From contig NZ_JADTQG010000006.1 in the NCBI RefSeq assembly GCF_016008875.1, forward strand, positions 124,001-188,000: a stretch of DNA of 64,000 bases, given 5' to 3'. Below, piece by piece: positions 36,093 through 43,368 of the stretch (position 1 is the first letter of the stretch; every line of letters starts with the position of its first letter). The DNA is from Ectopseudomonas mendocina (lineage in GTDB: Bacteria > Pseudomonadota > Gammaproteobacteria > Pseudomonadales > Pseudomonadaceae). Made by a program: the position numbers and the translations under genes. The notes under the pieces are model-generated. The model had not been told where the DNA came from. It ran no database searches and was given only the letters and a program-made list of their open reading frames with translations.

Positions 36093-36479
36093 TCAGAGCA
36101 GGATGGTCGCCCAGGTCAGGGCGATCATCAGCAGAGCGACCATCTGCGCCGCGCTGCCCATGTCCTTGGCCTGCTTGGATAGCGGGCGCAGGTTCAGCGA
36201 TATGCGGTCGACCACCGCCTCGATGGCGGAATTGAGCAGTTCCACCACCAGCGCCAGCAGCGGCACGAGCACCAGTAACGCGCGCTCCGCGCGGCTGAGA
36301 TCGACCAGGCAGGCCAGCGGCAGCAGTAGCAGATTCAGCCAGACCAGTTGGCGGAACGCCGCTTCACTCTGATACGCCGCGCGCAGCCCGGCCAGCGAGT
36401 AGCCGGTGGCGTCAAGGATGCGTGCCAGGCCGCGGCGACCCTTGAACGAGAGAGCGTCGAGATCGGAGCTTTCGTTCAT
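36093..36479 (-). CDS. dgkA: Diacylglycerol kinase
   Basis: A 128-residue inner-membrane DAG kinase with three helices and the signature LVVELLNSAIEAVVDR (about residues 77-92), which contains catalytic and metal Glu. It phosphorylates diacylglycerol to phosphatidic acid, recycling the DAG released when phospholipid head groups are used to decorate the envelope. In P. aeruginosa dgkA is linked to the ColR-controlled eptA (established knowledge as I recall). The start overlaps the InaA stop by four bases, so it is the last gene of the methyltransferase-inaA-dgkA unit. Confidence 0.93.
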   Translation of the reverse strand: MNESSDLDALSFKGRRGLARILDATGYSLAGLRAAYQSEAAFRQLVWLNLLLLPLACLVDLSRAERALLVLVPLLALVVELLNSAIEAVVDRISLNLRPLSKQAKDMGSAAQMVALLMIALTWATILL

Positions 36480-37180
36480 GGATGCAGCCCACCCCAGGGA
36501 TCGTTCAGCGCCTGCTGGTAGGCCTGGCGCAGGTAACTCAGGTCCGCGTCGGGCATGGCGCCACGGTGTCGGTTCAACTGGCCCAGGTCGCGCCGCGAGG
36601 CGCTGGCGACACGCCAGCGTCGCCGGCTTTTCTCCAGATCCAGCAGGGCGATCTCCACATCGCCATCGCTACGGGTTTTGACGAACAGGTGCTTGGCATA
36701 GCAGCAGCCGTGTTGCCAGCCGCCCAGGTGCAGGCGCGCCAGGGTCGCGGCCAGGCGTTGCAACATAGCCTGGTTGAGCTGTGGCGTTCGGGGCTCGCTG
36801 TACCAGTGCTCCAGGCTGACGAAGCCTGGCAATGCTTCGGTGACCAGCAACGCCTGCCAGCGACCGGCCTGTTTGCGCGCTGAGCAGTAAACGATGTTCG
36901 GTGTGCGAATGCCGAGGCGTGCGAAGGCGCGATAGGCCTGCAGCTCACGCAGAATGGTAGGCCTGCCCAAAGGGTGGCGTAGCGAGCGACAGGTGTGCCC
37001 GCTCTGGCGTTTGCAGTAAAGCAGCGGCCTGCTGCTATCCCAGTGTTGCAACAGACGCACGCCGCTTTCGCCGCCGCGCCGCTGGTTGGCTGGCTCGACC
37101 CATTCGCCAGGGCTGTGCCACCAGCGATCGAACTCGGTAGAGGGCAGGGCGGCCAGCGCTTGTTCGCTGAGGACTCCCAT
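36476..37180 (-). CDS. inaA: Lipopolysaccharide kinase InaA/WaaP-like protein
   Basis: A 234-residue kinase-fold protein of the Kdo/WaaP family. The likely catalytic region HGCCYAKHLFVK and the DFG-like LLDLEKSRRR lie near residues 165 and 190. InaA is known as a ColR-associated gene next to colRS in P. aeruginosa (memory). Its role in sugar or LPS phosphorylation is inferred from the family. The start MGVLSEQ is one base after the methyltransferase stop; the 50-residue upstream frame is a shadow. Confidence 0.85.
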   Translation of the reverse strand: MGVLSEQALAALPSTEFDRWWHSPGEWVEPANQRRGGESGVRLLQHWDSSRPLLYCKRQSGHTCRSLRHPLGRPTILRELQAYRAFARLGIRTPNIVYCSARKQAGRWQALLVTEALPGFVSLEHWYSEPRTPQLNQAMLQRLAATLARLHLGGWQHGCCYAKHLFVKTRSDGDVEIALLDLEKSRRRWRVASASRRDLGQLNRHRGAMPDADLSYLRQAYQQALNDPWGGLHP

Positions 37181-37181
37181 G

Positions 37182-37871
37182 TCAGGCCACCTTGCGCAGC
37201 ACGTAGGTGCGCCACATGGCGTAGCCGGGCAGGAAGTCCAGGTGGCCGAGTATGGCGAAGCCTGCCTGGCGGAACTCATCCTCCAGCGTCTTGCGAGGAA
37301 CGACGAAGCGGTTCTGATTCTGCTCTGCACGGCCCTGAGCGGCGCGCCGGGCCTCCAGGCGCCGACGTTTCCAGGCCTTGTAGTTGCCGTCGACCCACAG
37401 CGAGACGATCACCGTGTCGCGGCTGACTCGATGGAACTCGCGAAGGATGGCCAGACGGTGCTCGGCCGACTCGATGTGATGAAGCAGGCGAATGCAGAAG
37501 ATGCAGTCCACTGCATTGGCACTCAGGTCGATAGCGAAGGCCGAGGTGCGGAAGCTGTTGACCCTCGCCACCACCTCGGGCGCCTGCGCGGCACGCGCGG
37601 TGGCAAGCATGTCGGCAGAGTTGTCGGCGGCGAAGATCACCCGGTTCGGCTGTTCGCAAAGCATCGGCCAGAAGCGGCCGGCGCCGCAGGGCAGGTCGAG
37701 TATCAGGTTCGGCTGACCGGCCAGCTGCAATGCACGACGCGCCACCTGTACATCGCGCCAGTGCGACAGGCGCCGGGACAAACCGTCCTGATGTTTGTGC
37801 AGGTATTGCTGGGCGTGGTCGAAATCGTACTTGCGGGAAAAATCCAGTTCGATGGGGCTGGGCTTGGGCAT
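37182..37871 (-). CDS. SAM-dependent methyltransferase (WarA-like)
   Basis: A 229-residue class I methyltransferase. The SAM motif ILDLPCGAGRF lies at about residues 57-67, the acidic motif FAADNS near 80 and RLLHHIES near 130. The conserved place next to colRS and inaA matches WarA (PA4379), which modifies the LPS core with the help of a kinase. That identity rests on neighbourhood and my memory. Minus-strand 22-bp repeats upstream suggest it is expressed under ColR control. Confidence 0.85.
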   Translation of the reverse strand: MPKPSPIELDFSRKYDFDHAQQYLHKHQDGLSRRLSHWRDVQVARRALQLAGQPNLILDLPCGAGRFWPMLCEQPNRVIFAADNSADMLATARAAQAPEVVARVNSFRTSAFAIDLSANAVDCIFCIRLLHHIESAEHRLAILREFHRVSRDTVIVSLWVDGNYKAWKRRRLEARRAAQGRAEQNQNRFVVPRKTLEDEFRQAGFAILGHLDFLPGYAMWRTYVLRKVA

Positions 37872-37928
37872 GACGAACGTCCCTTGATGGAGATGTTCGT
37901 CACCTTAGAGAGCTGAGCATCAAGGTCC

Positions 37929-37956
37929 CGTCAAAGGGACGTGAAAATTTCGTCAA
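37929..37956 (-). promoter_or_regulatory. Predicted ColR binding repeat before the methyltransferase operon
   Basis: Minus strand TTGACGAAATTTTCAC, with a second TTGACG starting 22 bases downstream. The pattern is repeated before the LtaS-like gene. The site overlaps the last codon and stop of colS. Confidence 0.65.
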
Positions 37957-39221
37957 GCGCCATTGTTGAGCGTCAAGCGAAAGCGTGTATGGCCCGGCTC
38001 ACTCTCCAGGCTGACCTGCCAGCCCTGTTTGGCGCAGATGCGCTTGACCAGCGACAGGCCAAGGCCTAGGCCCTCGCCGCGGGCCTGGGCGCCGCGTACG
38101 AAAGGCTGGAAGATCCGCTCGTGCTGCTCGGCAGGAATGCCGGCACCACTGTCCTCGATGCGAAAGGCGCCGGACTCGAGAATCAGGCGCACCTCGCCGC
38201 GCTCGGTGTAGTGCAGGGCATTGCGTAGCAGATTGGCCATCACCGTGGCGAGAAAGGTCGCATTGTAGCGCCCGTCATCCTGGCCTTCCTCGATCAGCTG
38301 GAAATCCAGCCCCTTCTCCTTCATCAGTGCGCCCCAGCGGCTGGCTTGTTCATTGGCGATGGCGGCCAGGCTGCGGTCGCCAACGAATGCCGCTTCGTTG
38401 CTCTTGTCCCGCGCCAGCTGCAGGAAGGTCTGTACCAGCTCACGCATCTCTTCGCTGGCGCGGGCAATGCGTGCTACCTGTTCCTTCTCGCGCGGGCTCA
38501 ATGGCGCCTCGGCGAGCAGCTCGCAGGAGGTGGCGATGACCATCAGCGGCGTGCGCAGCTCATGGCTGACATCGCTGGTGAACAGGCGCTCGCGTTCCAG
38601 TGACTGGCGCACCTGGCCCAGGGTGCTGTCGAAGGCGGCGGCCAACTGGCCGACTTCATCATTGGGGTAATCCGGTGCCAGCGGTGGCGCCAGCGGATGC
38701 AGCTGATCACGGTGACGCACCTGCTGCGCCAGGCGGCTGATAGGCGCCATCACCTTGCGCGCCATGATCAGGCCCAGACCCCAGGCGGCGATGACGGTCA
38801 GCAGGAAACCCGCCAGCACTACATTGAACAGCGCATTTTCGCGGGCTTCGAACTCCTGCTGCTCCTGCACCAGCAGGTAGGTCTCGCCATTGATCTGCTG
38901 CACGTAAACGTAATACGCCTCGTCGCCACTGACGACCTCGTTGAAACCTTCCTGCAGACCCTCGTATTCGGGCGGGATTGCATAGTCGGGGTAATTGGAC
39001 GAGAAAAAGCGGGTGCTGGAATCCAGGCGCGGGGGGCGTCCCTGGCGAATGTCCTCGTTCAGCGTTTCGCCCAGCTCGCGGCTCATCTCCTGGGAAACCA
39101 GGTGTTCCTCGATGAAATGCACCACGCCGACGATGCTCAACGAGAACAGCCCGCTGACCACCGCAGTCATCAGGATGAAGGCGATCAGGATGCGCCGCTC
39201 GAACGGCTGCCTAGACAGCAT
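37953..39221 (-). CDS. colS: Sensor histidine kinase ColS
   Basis: A 422-residue membrane histidine kinase of the ColRS system. Transmembrane helices lie near residues 10-34 and 130-155, flanking a periplasmic region of about 95 residues. An ExxE pattern (E120-QQ-E123) is near its end. A HAMP domain, the HisKA box DVSHELRTPL, and ATPase motifs NLLRNALHY and EDSGAGI follow. P. putida ColS senses excess iron and zinc by an ExxE motif (established); whether this motif is the equivalent residue pair is inference. The start MLSRQPFERR overlaps colR by 11 bases. Further upstream residues are colR in another frame. Confidence 0.9.
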   Translation of the reverse strand: MLSRQPFERRILIAFILMTAVVSGLFSLSIVGVVHFIEEHLVSQEMSRELGETLNEDIRQGRPPRLDSSTRFFSSNYPDYAIPPEYEGLQEGFNEVVSGDEAYYVYVQQINGETYLLVQEQQEFEARENALFNVVLAGFLLTVIAAWGLGLIMARKVMAPISRLAQQVRHRDQLHPLAPPLAPDYPNDEVGQLAAAFDSTLGQVRQSLERERLFTSDVSHELRTPLMVIATSCELLAEAPLSPREKEQVARIARASEEMRELVQTFLQLARDKSNEAAFVGDRSLAAIANEQASRWGALMKEKGLDFQLIEEGQDDGRYNATFLATVMANLLRNALHYTERGEVRLILESGAFRIEDSGAGIPAEQHERIFQPFVRGAQARGEGLGLGLSLVKRICAKQGWQVSLESEPGHTRFRLTLNNGA

Positions 39222-39894
39222 CGGAGCTCTCCGCCAGGCGATAACCGATACCGTGAATGGTGTGCAGCAGCGGCGTGGGGAAGGGTTTGTCGAGCACCTG
39301 GCGTAACTGGTGGACATGGCTGCGCAGGCTGTCGCTGTCCGGGCAGTCGTCGCCCCACAGCGCTTCTTCCAGCGCCTCACGGCGCACCACCGCCGGGCTG
39401 CGCTGCATGAGAATGGCCAGCAGCTTGAGGCCCAGCGGGTTGAGTTTGAGCGCTTGGCCGGCGCGGCTGACGTGCAGGGTGTCGAGGTCGTAGTTGAGGT
39501 CGGCGACCTGCAGCTGGCGTGTGCGGCTGCCGCGGCTGCGGCGCAGGATCGCCTCGATACGTGCAACCAGCTCGGACAGCGCGAAGGGCTTGATCAGATA
39601 GTCATCGGCGCCGGCATTGAGTCCTTTCAGGCGATCATCCAGAGCATCTCGCGCAGTGAGCATCAGGATCGGTACTTCGCTGCGACCATCCTCGCGCAGG
39701 CGCTTGCATACCTGATAGCCGTCGATGCCCGGCAGCATGATGTCCAGCACGATCAAATCGTAATGACCGCTGCTGGCCAAGTGCAGGCCGCTCAGGCCGT
39801 CCTGTGCGCAATCGACGGAAAAGCCCTTGAGCTGCAGGTAGTCGAGCACGTTGGCGAGAATATCTCGGTTGTCTTCGATGACCAGAATGCGCAT
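39211..39894 (-). CDS. colR: Response regulator ColR
   Basis: A 227-residue OmpR-family regulator. The receiver has EDN at residues 7-9, phospho-acceptor D51 in VLDIMLPG and K101-type KPF. The winged-helix DNA-binding domain follows a Gly/Arg linker. Neighbours colS, inaA and the methyltransferase support the ColR identity. It should bind the 22-bp tandem repeats at 39913-39950 and 37929-37956. ColR is activated by metal stress and affects membrane lipids and polymyxin resistance (established in pseudomonads). Confidence 0.93.
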   Translation of the reverse strand: MRILVIEDNRDILANVLDYLQLKGFSVDCAQDGLSGLHLASSGHYDLIVLDIMLPGIDGYQVCKRLREDGRSEVPILMLTARDALDDRLKGLNAGADDYLIKPFALSELVARIEAILRRSRGSRTRQLQVADLNYDLDTLHVSRAGQALKLNPLGLKLLAILMQRSPAVVRREALEEALWGDDCPDSDSLRSHVHQLRQVLDKPFPTPLLHTIHGIGYRLAESSDAV

Positions 39895-39912
39895 CGCGAG
39901 TAATTCCTGGGT

Positions 39913-39950
39913 TTGACGATTTTTTCACACGGCTTTGACGAGAGGCTCAC
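39913..39950 (+). promoter_or_regulatory. Predicted ColR tandem repeat before the LtaS-like gene
   Basis: TTGACGATTTTTTCAC and TTGACGAGAGGCTCAC are direct copies with starts 22 bases apart (two helical turns). The same TTGACGA-N6-CAC pattern and 22-base spacing occur before the methyltransferase gene. Confidence 0.7.
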
Positions 39951-39997
39951 GGTGCGCCTCGCAGACTGCGGCTCGTTCATTCTGCAAGGATCATACG

Positions 39998-41956
39998 ATG
40001 CCACGGCTTCATTACGCGCAACTTCGTTATCTGTCGATAATTCTGCTGGCCTGGCTGGCAGTGTTTTTTCTCACCCGCAGCGCATTGCTGCTCGGGCACC
40101 TGGGCGATGCGGGCGTGACGCTGCCGGGGCTGCTTGGCCTGTATGGCGTCGGCCTGGTCTATGACCTCAGCTTCCTGGTGTACGCCGCGCTGCCGCTGAC
40201 CCTGTACCTGCTGCTCTGTCCGGCCTGGTTATGGCGCCGTCGCTGGCATCAGCGCCTGCTGGTCGCCCTGGTGGCCGTCAGCCTGTTCGCGATGTTCTTC
40301 ACTGCCGTAGCCGAATGGCTGTTCTGGGACGAGTTCGGTGTGCGCTTCAACTTCATCGCCGTGGACTACCTCGTCTATTCAAAGGAGGTGGTGGACAACA
40401 TCCTTGAGTCCTATCCGATCTATCCCTTGCTGGCCCTACTGGCGGTCATGGCCATAGGCCTGACGCTGGCGCTGCGACGACCGCTGCGGGCCGCACTGGA
40501 GGCACCGCGCCTGCCTGCGCTGCAGGCTATCTGTACGCTGGTCATGCTGGCGTTGCTGGCAGGCCTGTGCAGTGGCCTGGTCGGGCAGGACACGCCGCGT
40601 GGACTGGGTGGCAACACCTACCAGCGCGAGCTGGCCAGCAACGGTCCGTACCAGTTCTTCGCCGCATTCCGTAACAACGAACTGGATTACCAGCAGTTCT
40701 ATGCCACCTTGCCTGACGCGCCGGTGGCTGCGCAGCTGCGCGCGGAGGTGGCCGAGCCCAATGCCCGTTTCATCGGCAGCGATCCGCAGGACATCCGACG
40801 GCTGATCGACAACCCCGGCTCGCCGCGTAAGCTCAATGTGGTGCTGGTGACCATCGAGAGCCTGAGTGCCAAGTATCTGGGCAGTTTCGGCGACACCCGC
40901 GGGCTGACCCCGAACCTCGATGAGCTGCGCAAGCACGCCCTGGTTTTTACCAACCTCTACGCCACCGGCACGCGCACCGACCGCGGTCTGGAGGCGCTGA
41001 CCCTGTCGGTACCGCCGACACCGGGGCGCTCCATCGTCAAGCGCATCGGCCATGAGTCCGGTTACGCCAGCCTGGGCCAGCAACTGAGCGCTCAGGGCTA
41101 CGACAGCGTCTTCGTCTATGGCGGCCGCGGCTATTTCGACAATATGAACGCCTTCTTCGGCGGCAACGGTTATCGCGTCGTCGACCAGAGCAGCGTCGAC
41201 GAGGCCGAGATGAGCTTCCAGAACGCCTGGGGCATGGCCGACGAGGACCTCTATCGCCAGGCGATCAAGGTGGCCGATGCCGATCACGCCGCCGGCAAGC
41301 CGTTCCTCCTGCAACTGATGACCACCTCCAACCACCGTCCCTACACCTACCCGGATGGGCGCATCGACATTGCCTCCGGCGAGGGGCGCGAAGGGGCAGT
41401 GAAGTACACCGATTACGCCATCGGCCAGTTCCTCGCCGAGGCGCGCAGCAAGCCCTGGTTCGATCAGACGCTATTCGTCTTCGTCGCCGACCATACCGCC
41501 GGTAGCGCCGGGCGTGAGGATCTGCCGGTGGCCAACTACCACATCCCGCTGTTCATCTACGCCCCGAAATACGTCAAACCGGCCGAATACGCCGACGTCG
41601 CCAGCCAGATCGACGTGGCGCCGACGCTGCTCGGCCTGCTCAATCTGGATTACGTCTCCACCTTCTTCGGCCGCAACCTGTTACGCGCTGATCATCCCGC
41701 AGGCCGCGCGCTGCTGGGCAACTACCAGCATCTTGGACTGTTCGACGGCAAGGACCTGGCGATCCTCAGCCCGCGCCGGGGCATGCGCCGCCATGACGAC
41801 GCCCTGGGGCTGAGTCATGAGTCGCGCAGCGATGGCGACGATCCGCTGCTGCGTCGTGACATCGCCTACTACCAGGGTGCCAGTCATGCCTTCGGTAAAC
41901 AGCTGATGGCCTGGCATCCAGACGCCCAATCCAGCCAGCAACTCAGCGCGCGCTAA
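39998..41956 (+). CDS. LtaS-like sulfatase-fold phosphoglycerol/phosphoethanolamine transferase
   Basis: A 652-residue inner-membrane enzyme. Five N-terminal helices (about residues 10-175) are followed by an extracytoplasmic alkaline-phosphatase fold. Metal and nucleophile motifs are present: VTIESLSAKY, the catalytic Thr in TGTRTDRG, and FVADHTAGS. LTA-synthase-like proteins in Gram-negatives transfer a head group from phospholipid, to glucan or lipid A. The product here is unknown. AAGGA lies seven bases before ATG; a 21-codon longer frame is discarded. It starts a three-gene unit with PAP2 and phosphatase genes, divergent from colR. Confidence 0.88.
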   Translation: MPRLHYAQLRYLSIILLAWLAVFFLTRSALLLGHLGDAGVTLPGLLGLYGVGLVYDLSFLVYAALPLTLYLLLCPAWLWRRRWHQRLLVALVAVSLFAMFFTAVAEWLFWDEFGVRFNFIAVDYLVYSKEVVDNILESYPIYPLLALLAVMAIGLTLALRRPLRAALEAPRLPALQAICTLVMLALLAGLCSGLVGQDTPRGLGGNTYQRELASNGPYQFFAAFRNNELDYQQFYATLPDAPVAAQLRAEVAEPNARFIGSDPQDIRRLIDNPGSPRKLNVVLVTIESLSAKYLGSFGDTRGLTPNLDELRKHALVFTNLYATGTRTDRGLEALTLSVPPTPGRSIVKRIGHESGYASLGQQLSAQGYDSVFVYGGRGYFDNMNAFFGGNGYRVVDQSSVDEAEMSFQNAWGMADEDLYRQAIKVADADHAAGKPFLLQLMTTSNHRPYTYPDGRIDIASGEGREGAVKYTDYAIGQFLAEARSKPWFDQTLFVFVADHTAGSAGREDLPVANYHIPLFIYAPKYVKPAEYADVASQIDVAPTLLGLLNLDYVSTFFGRNLLRADHPAGRALLGNYQHLGLFDGKDLAILSPRRGMRRHDDALGLSHESRSDGDDPLLRRDIAYYQGASHAFGKQLMAWHPDAQSSQQLSAR

Positions 41957-41965
41957 GGAGTGGAA

Positions 41966-42691
41966 ATGTCGTCCCGTTATTTCGACTTTCGCATGGCGCT
42001 CGGTATACCGGTACTGCTGATGGCGCTGCTGCTGGCGTTCGATCCCAGCCCGGTGGATTTCGCCCTGGCGCGGCTGTTCTACGAGCCCGGGCAGGGCTTC
42101 ATCGGACGCAGCAGCTTCTGGCTGGAGGACATCCTGCATGATCGCGCCAAGCAGGCGCTGATCCTGCTCGGTGCGCTGGCTATCGCAGGCTTTGTGCTCA
42201 GCCTGCTGCCCACGCGACTACGCCGCTGGCGCCGGCAACTCGGCTATCTCGTGCTGGCACTGGGGCTGTCGACTTCCCTGGTCACCCCGCTGAAAACGCT
42301 CACCGGCATGCACTGCCCCTGGAGCTTGAGCGAGTTCGGCGGCCAGGAGCAATTCACGCCGCTGCTGGCCGAGCGCGCGCCGACCGCCAATCCCGGCCGC
42401 TGCTGGCCGGGCGGCCATGCCTCGGCGGGGTTCTCGCTGCTGGCACTGTTCTTCGTCCTGCGTGACCGCAGGCCGCGGATGGCACGTATCGCTCTGGTGG
42501 TGGCGCTGGGGCTCGGCTCGCTGTTTTCCCTGGGTCGCATGCTGCAAGGGGCGCACTTTCTCTCGCACAACCTGTGGACGCTGCTGATCGATTGGACCAT
42601 CTGCGTGCTGACCTACCGCTGGCTGCTCTATCGCGCACCTACCGAACAGCCATCGTGCAACTCGCTTGAATGGGGAGAAACCTGCCGATGA
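41966..42691 (+). CDS. PAP2-family membrane phosphatase
   Basis: A 241-residue inner-membrane phosphatase with about five helices. The PAP2 triad is visible: KTLTGMHCPW, WPGGHASAGFS and GRMLQGAHFLSH. Relatives include LpxE, LpxT and PgpB. It could dephosphorylate lipid A, undecaprenyl-PP or phosphatidyl-glycerophosphate. ATG follows AAGGAG. It is ten bases after the LtaS-like gene and overlaps the phosphatase gene by four. Confidence 0.88.
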   Translation: MSSRYFDFRMALGIPVLLMALLLAFDPSPVDFALARLFYEPGQGFIGRSSFWLEDILHDRAKQALILLGALAIAGFVLSLLPTRLRRWRRQLGYLVLALGLSTSLVTPLKTLTGMHCPWSLSEFGGQEQFTPLLAERAPTANPGRCWPGGHASAGFSLLALFFVLRDRRPRMARIALVVALGLGSLFSLGRMLQGAHFLSHNLWTLLIDWTICVLTYRWLLYRAPTEQPSCNSLEWGETCR

Positions 42692-43368
42692 ACAGATTTC
42701 TACAGGGACTGCGTCTGGCGTTGGCCACGCTGGTATTTTTCGGTGCGCTGCTGGCGCTGCCCTTGAGCATGGCCTGGGCGGCCACCACTGCGCCAGTGCC
42801 GGCGCAAACCGTGCGTCCGGCCAACTGGGCGCAGCCGCTGGACAGCCGCATCAACCTCTATCGCATGGCGCCGAATCTCTATCGCAGCGCCTTGCCCAGT
42901 GCCAGGGATTTGCCTGAGCTGCAGGCGCTGGGCATCGCCACGGTGATCAACTTCTATCAGCGCGGCGATGAGCATTGGCTGAAGGATCCCAAGGTTGTTC
43001 AGGTGCATCTGCCGCTGCGTACCTACCGTATCGACGATGCCGACGTCATCGAAGTGCTGCGCAGCATTCGCCAGGCGCAAAGCCGTGGCCGCGTTCTGAT
43101 TCACTGCAAGCACGGACAGAATCGTACGGGGCTCATTGCCGCCATGTACCGGGTGATCTACCAGAACTGGAGCAAGGAGCAGGCACTGGCGGAAATGCGC
43201 GGCGGCGGCTTTGGCGGTGAGTCGCGCATGGATGATGCCGAGCGTTACCTGCGCCACGCCGATATCCCGGCGTTGCGCTCGGCACTGGCCAGCGGAGCGT
43301 GCAGCACCAGCCGGTGGGCAATGTGCGCATTCAGCGAGCGCTTGCTGGGCATGATCGAGGGGGCGTGA
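42688..43368 (+). CDS. Exported dual-specificity/tyrosine phosphatase
   Basis: A 226-residue protein beginning with a signal peptide or anchor (residues 1-33). The Cx5R catalytic loop is HCKHGQNRTG (about residue 145). Exported phosphatases of this family have been found acting on proteins, inositol phosphates and phosphatidylglycerophosphate. Its place with LtaS-like and PAP2 genes suggests a lipid-phosphate substrate. The ATGA overlap with PAP2 fixes the start over an earlier ATG. Confidence 0.87.
   Translation: MNRFLQGLRLALATLVFFGALLALPLSMAWAATTAPVPAQTVRPANWAQPLDSRINLYRMAPNLYRSALPSARDLPELQALGIATVINFYQRGDEHWLKDPKVVQVHLPLRTYRIDDADVIEVLRSIRQAQSRGRVLIHCKHGQNRTGLIAAMYRVIYQNWSKEQALAEMRGGGFGGESRMDDAERYLRHADIPALRSALASGACSTSRWAMCAFSERLLGMIEGA

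Follow-up and report, generated by a model that had tools for sequence, protein, structure and literature searches.

The closest described counterpart of the operators discussed here is that of the ColRS two-component system of Pseudomonas putida. DNase I footprints of ColR have been published for seven P. putida promoters, including PP0900/colR and PP0903, together with a 16 bp consensus, (T/C)(T/C)NA(C/G)NN(T/C)TTTTT(C/G)AC (PMC2689224, 2009). Two direct repeats inside this core, as well as extra weaker boxes at PP0900/0901 (as data not shown), were already reported in that work. ColR acts positively on the PP0900 and PP0903 promoters; its effect on PP0903 is tenfold, while PP0900 responds little on glucose alone and distinctly when phenol is present or ColR is overproduced, and phosphorylation gives ColR a higher affinity (PMC2689224). 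In the colR direction the intergenic region is not clearly ColR-responsive (PMC2689224). Zinc induces PP0900 and PP0903 through ColRS, with colR described as uninduced (PMC4074579). PhoB is likewise an OmpR-family regulator, which binds the pho boxes as a head-to-tail dimer on direct repeats; its sites overlap the -35 position with tandem symmetry (PMC3348028). In Xanthomonas, the RaxH-RaxR system has been described as orthologous to ColS-ColR, and it also adjoins lipid A-remodelling genes (PMC8306577).

The window analysed here is a stretch of 64,000 nucleotides (64 kb) from Ectopseudomonas mendocina. It contains colR (39211-39894, minus strand), encoding an OmpR-family response regulator with Response_reg and Trans_reg_C domains, and colS (37953-39221, minus strand), encoding a sensor histidine kinase with HAMP, HisKA and HATPase_c domains. 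No NCBIfam model was matched at its cut-off by the regulator, and its probable identity as ColR comes from the order of the genes and from an identity of 75-88% to the colR loci of named Pseudomonas records. Divergent from colR, on the plus strand, are genes for an LtaS-like or phosphoglycerol-transferase-like membrane protein of the sulfatase fold (39998-41956; Pfam Sulfatase, NCBIfam relatives below their cut-offs), a PAP2-family, lipid A phosphatase-like phosphatase (41960-42691; Pfam PAP2, NF028538 below its cut-off) and a dual-specificity-type (DSP-type) phosphatase (42670-43368; PTP-SAK, DSPc). Beyond colS, on the minus strand, are a gene with methyltransferase domains (37182-37871) that is the orthologue of PP0903 (warA), then inaA (36476-37180; lipopolysaccharide kinase-like, Pfam Kdo, NF007383 InaA below its cut-off) and the diacylglycerol kinase gene dgkA (36093-36479; DAGK_prokar). 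The original prediction, made from the DNA of the window, had placed seven envelope genes under one regulator; six can be identified, three in each operon. The third gene of the methyltransferase-inaA operon, dgkA (36093-36479), seems to have been recruited into the ColR operon in the lineage of the window, since 32 other colR loci extending 4 kb or more beyond the start of colR gave no DgkA match, and since P. putida dgkA-1 (PP1636) is located elsewhere with a ColR-responsive promoter of its own (PMC2689224).

A pattern search of the 64 kb window for TTGACGA-N6-CAC gives three exact matches, at 39913-39928 and 39935-39950 on the plus strand and at 37956-37941 on the minus strand. Dinucleotide-preserving shuffles (n = 100) contain 0.13 matches on average, and three or more occurred in one of the 100. 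The two copies predicted before the LtaS-like gene are thus present with starts 22 bp apart, and the one predicted on the minus strand before the methyltransferase operon is indeed accompanied by a second TTGACG at 37934, 22 bases on from 37956. The claim that 22 bp is the repeat unit, at two helical turns, has to be revised: TTNAC recurs with a period of 11 bp, as TTGAC (39913), TTCAC (39924), TTGAC (39935) and CTCAC (39946) on the plus strand and as TTGAC (37956), TTCAC (37945), TTGAC (37934) and TTGAT (37923) on the minus strand. The repeat unit is therefore 11 bp, or one helical turn, and a step of 22 bp would lead from one dimer site to the next.

On the LtaS-like side the core ColR site (39913-39928, plus strand) comprises half-sites 1 (39913-39917) and 2 (39924-39928) with a T-tract between them. 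It is followed by a proximal site (39935-39950) with half-sites 3 (39935-39939) and 4 (39946-39950), and by the probable -10 hexamer of the LtaS-like operon, CAGACT (39962-39967). On the minus strand, the methyltransferase operon has its core site at 37941-37956 (half-site 1 at 37956-37952, half-site 2 at 37945-37941), its proximal site at 37919-37934 (half-site 3 at 37934-37930, half-site 4 at 37923-37919) and its probable -10 hexamer, TAAGGT, at 37902-37907. The positions of both proximal sites are conserved in relatives, as is NANNNT at +49, the position of the two hexamers. The first half-site of the methyltransferase operator (37952-37956) also holds the colS stop codon. An exact fit to the published consensus is found at the 39913 copy only; the 37956 copy misses two T-tract positions, and the 39935 copy lacks the T-tract. 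With a matrix built from the seven published cores, the methyltransferase-side core scores 16.3 bits, and those cores themselves 20.4-25.9.

The PP0900/colR intergenic region and the PP0903 promoter of P. putida are the counterparts of the two sites in the window: the regulator, the two flanking promoters and the core motif are all the same (PMC2689224). The site of Pseudomonas inefficax (L011) is an almost letter-for-letter match to the published PP0900 site, which indicates that the loci correspond. The idea of a ColR operator common to both promoters flanking colRS is thus right in substance, ColR having been footprinted on the orthologous P. putida promoters; the operator itself has been known in print since 2009, and what is added here is its four-half-site layout. 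ColR would be expected to bind and activate these promoters in Ectopseudomonas mendocina as well. For P. putida a 16 bp core was given; neither the array of four half-sites nor a fixed -10 appears in the parts of the main text of PMC2689224 that were covered. In the literature searched, which included parts of PMC8306577, PMC4074579 and PMC9952513, no description of a four-half-site ColR operator with a fixed -10 was found, though one may exist elsewhere in print.

The layout was compared across 123 colR loci, consisting of the window, 33 named loci (L002 and L004-L035; one Alloalcanivorax, the rest Pseudomonas) chosen out of 80, and 89 family loci (L097-L185), 60 of them picked by hand from a listing. 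L003, a Propionivibrio record whose ColR is 86% identical, was excluded, as were the more distant loci L036-L081. At least two pairs of duplicate records are found among the 123 (L002/L117 and L034/L141); these were removed by dereplication, in which sequences at least 75% alike were dropped, leaving 52 promoters upstream of colR and 62 downstream of colS. To locate cores, only the matrix described above, built from the seven P. putida cores, was used. As offsets 22, 33 and 49 lie outside this anchor, the profile is blind to them. A core could be anchored upstream of colR in 88 of the 123 loci and downstream of colS in 104, leaving 35 and 19, respectively, without one; six of the 35 upstream misses (L128, L133, L135, L140, L144 and L151) bear arrays without a T-tract, TTCACGCCTTCTTTAC or TTCACGGCTTCTTTAC. 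Among the dereplicated promoters, NTNAC is found at offsets 0, 11, 22 and 33 in 44, 50, 47 and 19 of 52 upstream of colR, and in 57, 62, 58 and 25 of 62 downstream of colS, half-site 4 thus being weak on both sides. At other offsets the means are 0.8% on the colR side and 1.1% on the colS side, with maxima of 17% and 13%. NANNNT at +49 is present in 46/52 and 57/62, against means of 4.4% and 3.7% at other offsets (largest value 23% on both sides). The layout of TTNAC at 0, 11, 22 and 33 with a -10-like NANNNT from +49 therefore holds across Pseudomonadaceae, and the repeat is conserved at orthologous loci, as the original prediction implied.

This conserved 11 bp layout, with its half-site at +22 and its hexamer at +49, is the reason why the 22 bp repeat is read as a pair of neighbouring ColR dimer sites, of which the proximal one takes the place of a -35 box; this is the most likely interpretation from sequence. 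We consider it quite probable that the repeats are ColR operators at two flanking target operons, each with four 11 bp direct half-sites, and that they serve a PhoB-like recruitment at promoters without a -35 box. Each operator would be a row of four direct TTNAC half-sites on the coding strand. Half-sites 1 and 2 with the T-tract, corresponding to the published core, would take up one phosphorylated ColR dimer, head to tail, and a second dimer would bind to the weaker site made up of half-sites 3 and 4. This second site would occupy the -35 position, with the -10 hexamer fixed at +49. Because the proximal site takes the -35 position and the -10 is fixed, such a promoter would lack a separate -35, and it would be the proximal ColR dimer that brings in polymerase, in the manner of PhoB. 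At the level of sequence both promoters have what is expected of an OmpR/PhoB-type class II activator site, namely direct repeats of about 11 bp and a site at -35 at a fixed distance to the -10. The letters of the half-sites differ from those of PhoB, and the two adjacent dimer sites are a proposal made here (PMC3348028 for PhoB). Occupancy by two dimers, contact with sigma and activation would follow in this species if the reading is right.

A much simpler reading would take the TTGACG words for the -35 boxes of ordinary sigma-70 promoters, as they resemble TTGACA. This is hardly tenable: the conserved -10 lies 21 bp past the nearer TTGACG, which is outside the usual spacing, this distance is constant, and the third base of the motif varies between G, C and A. 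Moreover, the ordinary arrangement of -35 and -10 about 17 bp apart is not seen, and a promoter scan found no sigma-70 pair that satisfied its rule in 37850-40050, where shuffles gave 0.5 on average. A more serious alternative, though still an unlikely one, is that a single ColR dimer binds the core only, and that half-sites 3 and 4 are conserved for other reasons, such as contacts of RNA polymerase or of a second factor. The footprints at PP0903 and oprQ, with 24-26 bp, are close to the size of one dimer site (PMC2689224), and half-site 4 is weak. Against this, half-site 3 keeps TTNAC in exact 11 bp phase in 47/52 and 58/62 promoters, the footprint at PP3766 is 46 bp long, and extra weaker boxes were reported at PP0900/0901 (PMC2689224).

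In the 5.1 Mb genome the published consensus has one match (39913), and so has the reversed control; the core alone is thus not rare enough to serve as proof. With one mismatch allowed, the core pattern had 16 matches against 13 in the control and was dropped as a genome-wide signature, as were NTNACNNNNTTTTSAC (7 matches against 9, no better than chance) and TTGAC-N17-TTGAC (4 against 12, unspecific). The three-half-site pattern YTNAC-N6-YTNAC-N6-YTNAC has five matches in the 5.1 Mb genome, three of them in the two sites, and none in the reversed control. A rule combining the core with the +22 and +49 elements has 157 matches within the two promoter windows of the 123 loci, counted without dereplication, and none elsewhere in 723 kb on both strands. 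A 58-column matrix was built from the 114 dereplicated promoters, with both window sites in the training set; these score 54.4 and 51.3, and nothing else in the 64 kb scores above 12. Loci from the searches with three half-sites, TTGAC-N17-TTGAC, NTNACNNNNTTTTSAC and the one-mismatch core reach at most 0.6 bits with this matrix, except for the two sites.

A layout model using sequence only, trained on 48 sequences that again included both window sites, finds only these two in the genome (E 3.4e-9 and 1.5e-8). The next match (L251) has an E of 0.12 and no -10. No third site of the four-half-site layout was thus found in the genome, where more degenerate ones may exist. In 59 genomes of the genus, a search with the core only gives 136 matches against 10 in the control (our own sums). 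Judged by eye, both the +22 and the +49 elements are present at 5 of 30 such core-only loci (L254, L259, L272, L276 and L281), and the core alone is no predictor of the full layout. Compared with the 16 bp core, the full layout is thus far more specific, with two sites remaining in this genome.

A further question is whether the operator goes together with its regulator. For this comparison, 20 genomes were picked by hand from 53 without a colR match at 1e-60. A match to the layout model at 0.1 or better is found in two of these 20, both weak (0.003 and 0.02), as opposed to 17 of 20 hand-picked genomes with colR, four of which (G001, G042, G063 and G179) had supplied training sequences. Three colR-bearing genomes are missed, and one of them, G163, has a core at colR (L172), which means that the model overlooks some sites. 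The operator is present with ColR and largely absent without a colR match. The half-sites of CpxR and PmrA are related to the TTNAC half-sites of the ColR type, and in principle one of these OmpR-family regulators could be the main binder. This is very improbable: few such sites are left in relatives lacking a colR match, and the alternative was dropped since the published footprints on the orthologous promoters were obtained with ColR itself (PMC2689224).

The genes next to the operator vary. Where the divergent neighbour is LtaS-like (53 loci, one of them also matching DSP), PAP2 (32) or DSP-type (1), the core is found in 79/86 loci, and six of the seven misses are the arrays without a T-tract mentioned above (L128, L133, L135, L140, L144 and L151). 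With none of these neighbours detected it is found in 9/36; one further locus had too short a flank. This points to one operator standing before different envelope enzymes in different lineages. In the window the first gene is LtaS-like, not PAP2 as in P. putida (PMC2689224), and such variation presumably arose by loss of the leading gene. On the colS side, the core is anchored in 92 of the 102 loci where a methyltransferase gene was detected and in 12 of the other 21.

It is also possible, though rather doubtful, that the 39913 array represses colR in this lineage, which would be compatible with the ColR operator reading given above. The region between colR and the LtaS-like gene is only 103 bp long (39895-39997). 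With its start 18 bp away from the start codon of colR, the array has to overlap the promoter of colR itself or lie downstream of it. In the close relatives L097-L114 the distance between array and colR is similarly short, at 15-23 bp, and no separate sigma-70 promoter pair is recognised in the region. In the P. putida-group loci L007, L010 and L011 the core is 96-98 bp from colR, farther than here, and colR of P. putida is reported as unresponsive to ColR or metals in PMC2689224 and PMC4074579. Unlike in P. putida, colR may be autoregulated in this species.

Outside the main set, 47 loci (L036-L081 and L003) were scored with the 58-column matrix. L068, from a Zoogloeaceae metagenome-assembled genome, encodes a ColR with 77% identity and shows a full array scoring 54.3 before the methyltransferase orthologue; the presence of both operator (9472) and ColR suggests a transferred cassette or an error in binning. 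L059 scores 28.9, and L063, L069 and L078 score 12.9-16.6, with nothing above 12 in the remaining loci. These include the Lysobacteraceae (L036-L052, L055 and L056), the comparison for RaxH-RaxR, in which no match exceeded 12 bits. The record of L003 is labelled Propionivibrio soli; along with its 86% identical ColR, it has three half-sites in a row upstream of colR.

Within the genus, the layout model has a match at an E of 1 or better in 29/31 genomes. Nineteen hand-chosen matches outside this genome were fetched, along with the weak match in this genome. By eye, NANNNT at +49 is found in 19/19 and NTNAC at +22 in 18/19; these counts are not independent, as the model contains those columns, while the identities of the neighbouring genes are. 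The next genes, also assigned by eye, are PmrG-type LPS heptose phosphatases in 12 cases and EptA-like in two, with one each ArnT-like, LtaS-like, DSP-type, a histidine kinase and a membrane protein without a family. Seven of them were scanned for families: two pass the cut-off for PmrG, the EptA-like, ArnT-like and kinase fragments score below the full-length cut-offs of the families they match, and two have no match. Operators of the same layout (L232-L250) thus precede pmrG-like, eptA-like and arnT-like genes in other Pseudomonas; in this genome only the two colRS-flanking sites were found.

Another case is a conserved non-coding element with a perfect ColR-like core, mostly CTGACGATTTTTTCAC, seen in L252, L255, L257, L260-L262, L264, L268, L271, L273, L278 and L280 and listed in 42/59 genomes by hand count. 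It has the flanking words GTGGACAAC and TGTGCACAAG, no +22 half-site and no +49 hexamer, and those of its loci that were scanned gave no tRNA or Rfam match. In L255 one neighbour is RmuC-like by eye. Its core may have arisen by chance within a conserved region.

It is tempting to extend the layout to a general rule, in which ColR-activated promoters form one class without a -35, with a 22 bp step between the two dimer sites and a -10 at +49, and isolated cores stand for repression or another mode. We put this forward tentatively, as slightly less probable than its opposite. By our own reading of Table 1 of PMC2689224, NTNAC at +22 is found with three of the seven published cores (PP0900, PP2561 and PP0903), and the ColR-repressed pagL (PP0737) and oprQ sites lack it. 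PP0035 and PP3766, however, are positively controlled yet have no NTNAC at +22 in the same table, which counts against a strict rule for the sign of regulation. If the rule is true, both the sign of regulation and the ColR regulon of a species would be readable from sequence. The layout yields a precise prediction of transcription start positions, and it provides a means to compare ColR regulons between species, as the matches before pmrG-like, eptA-like and arnT-like genes suggest.
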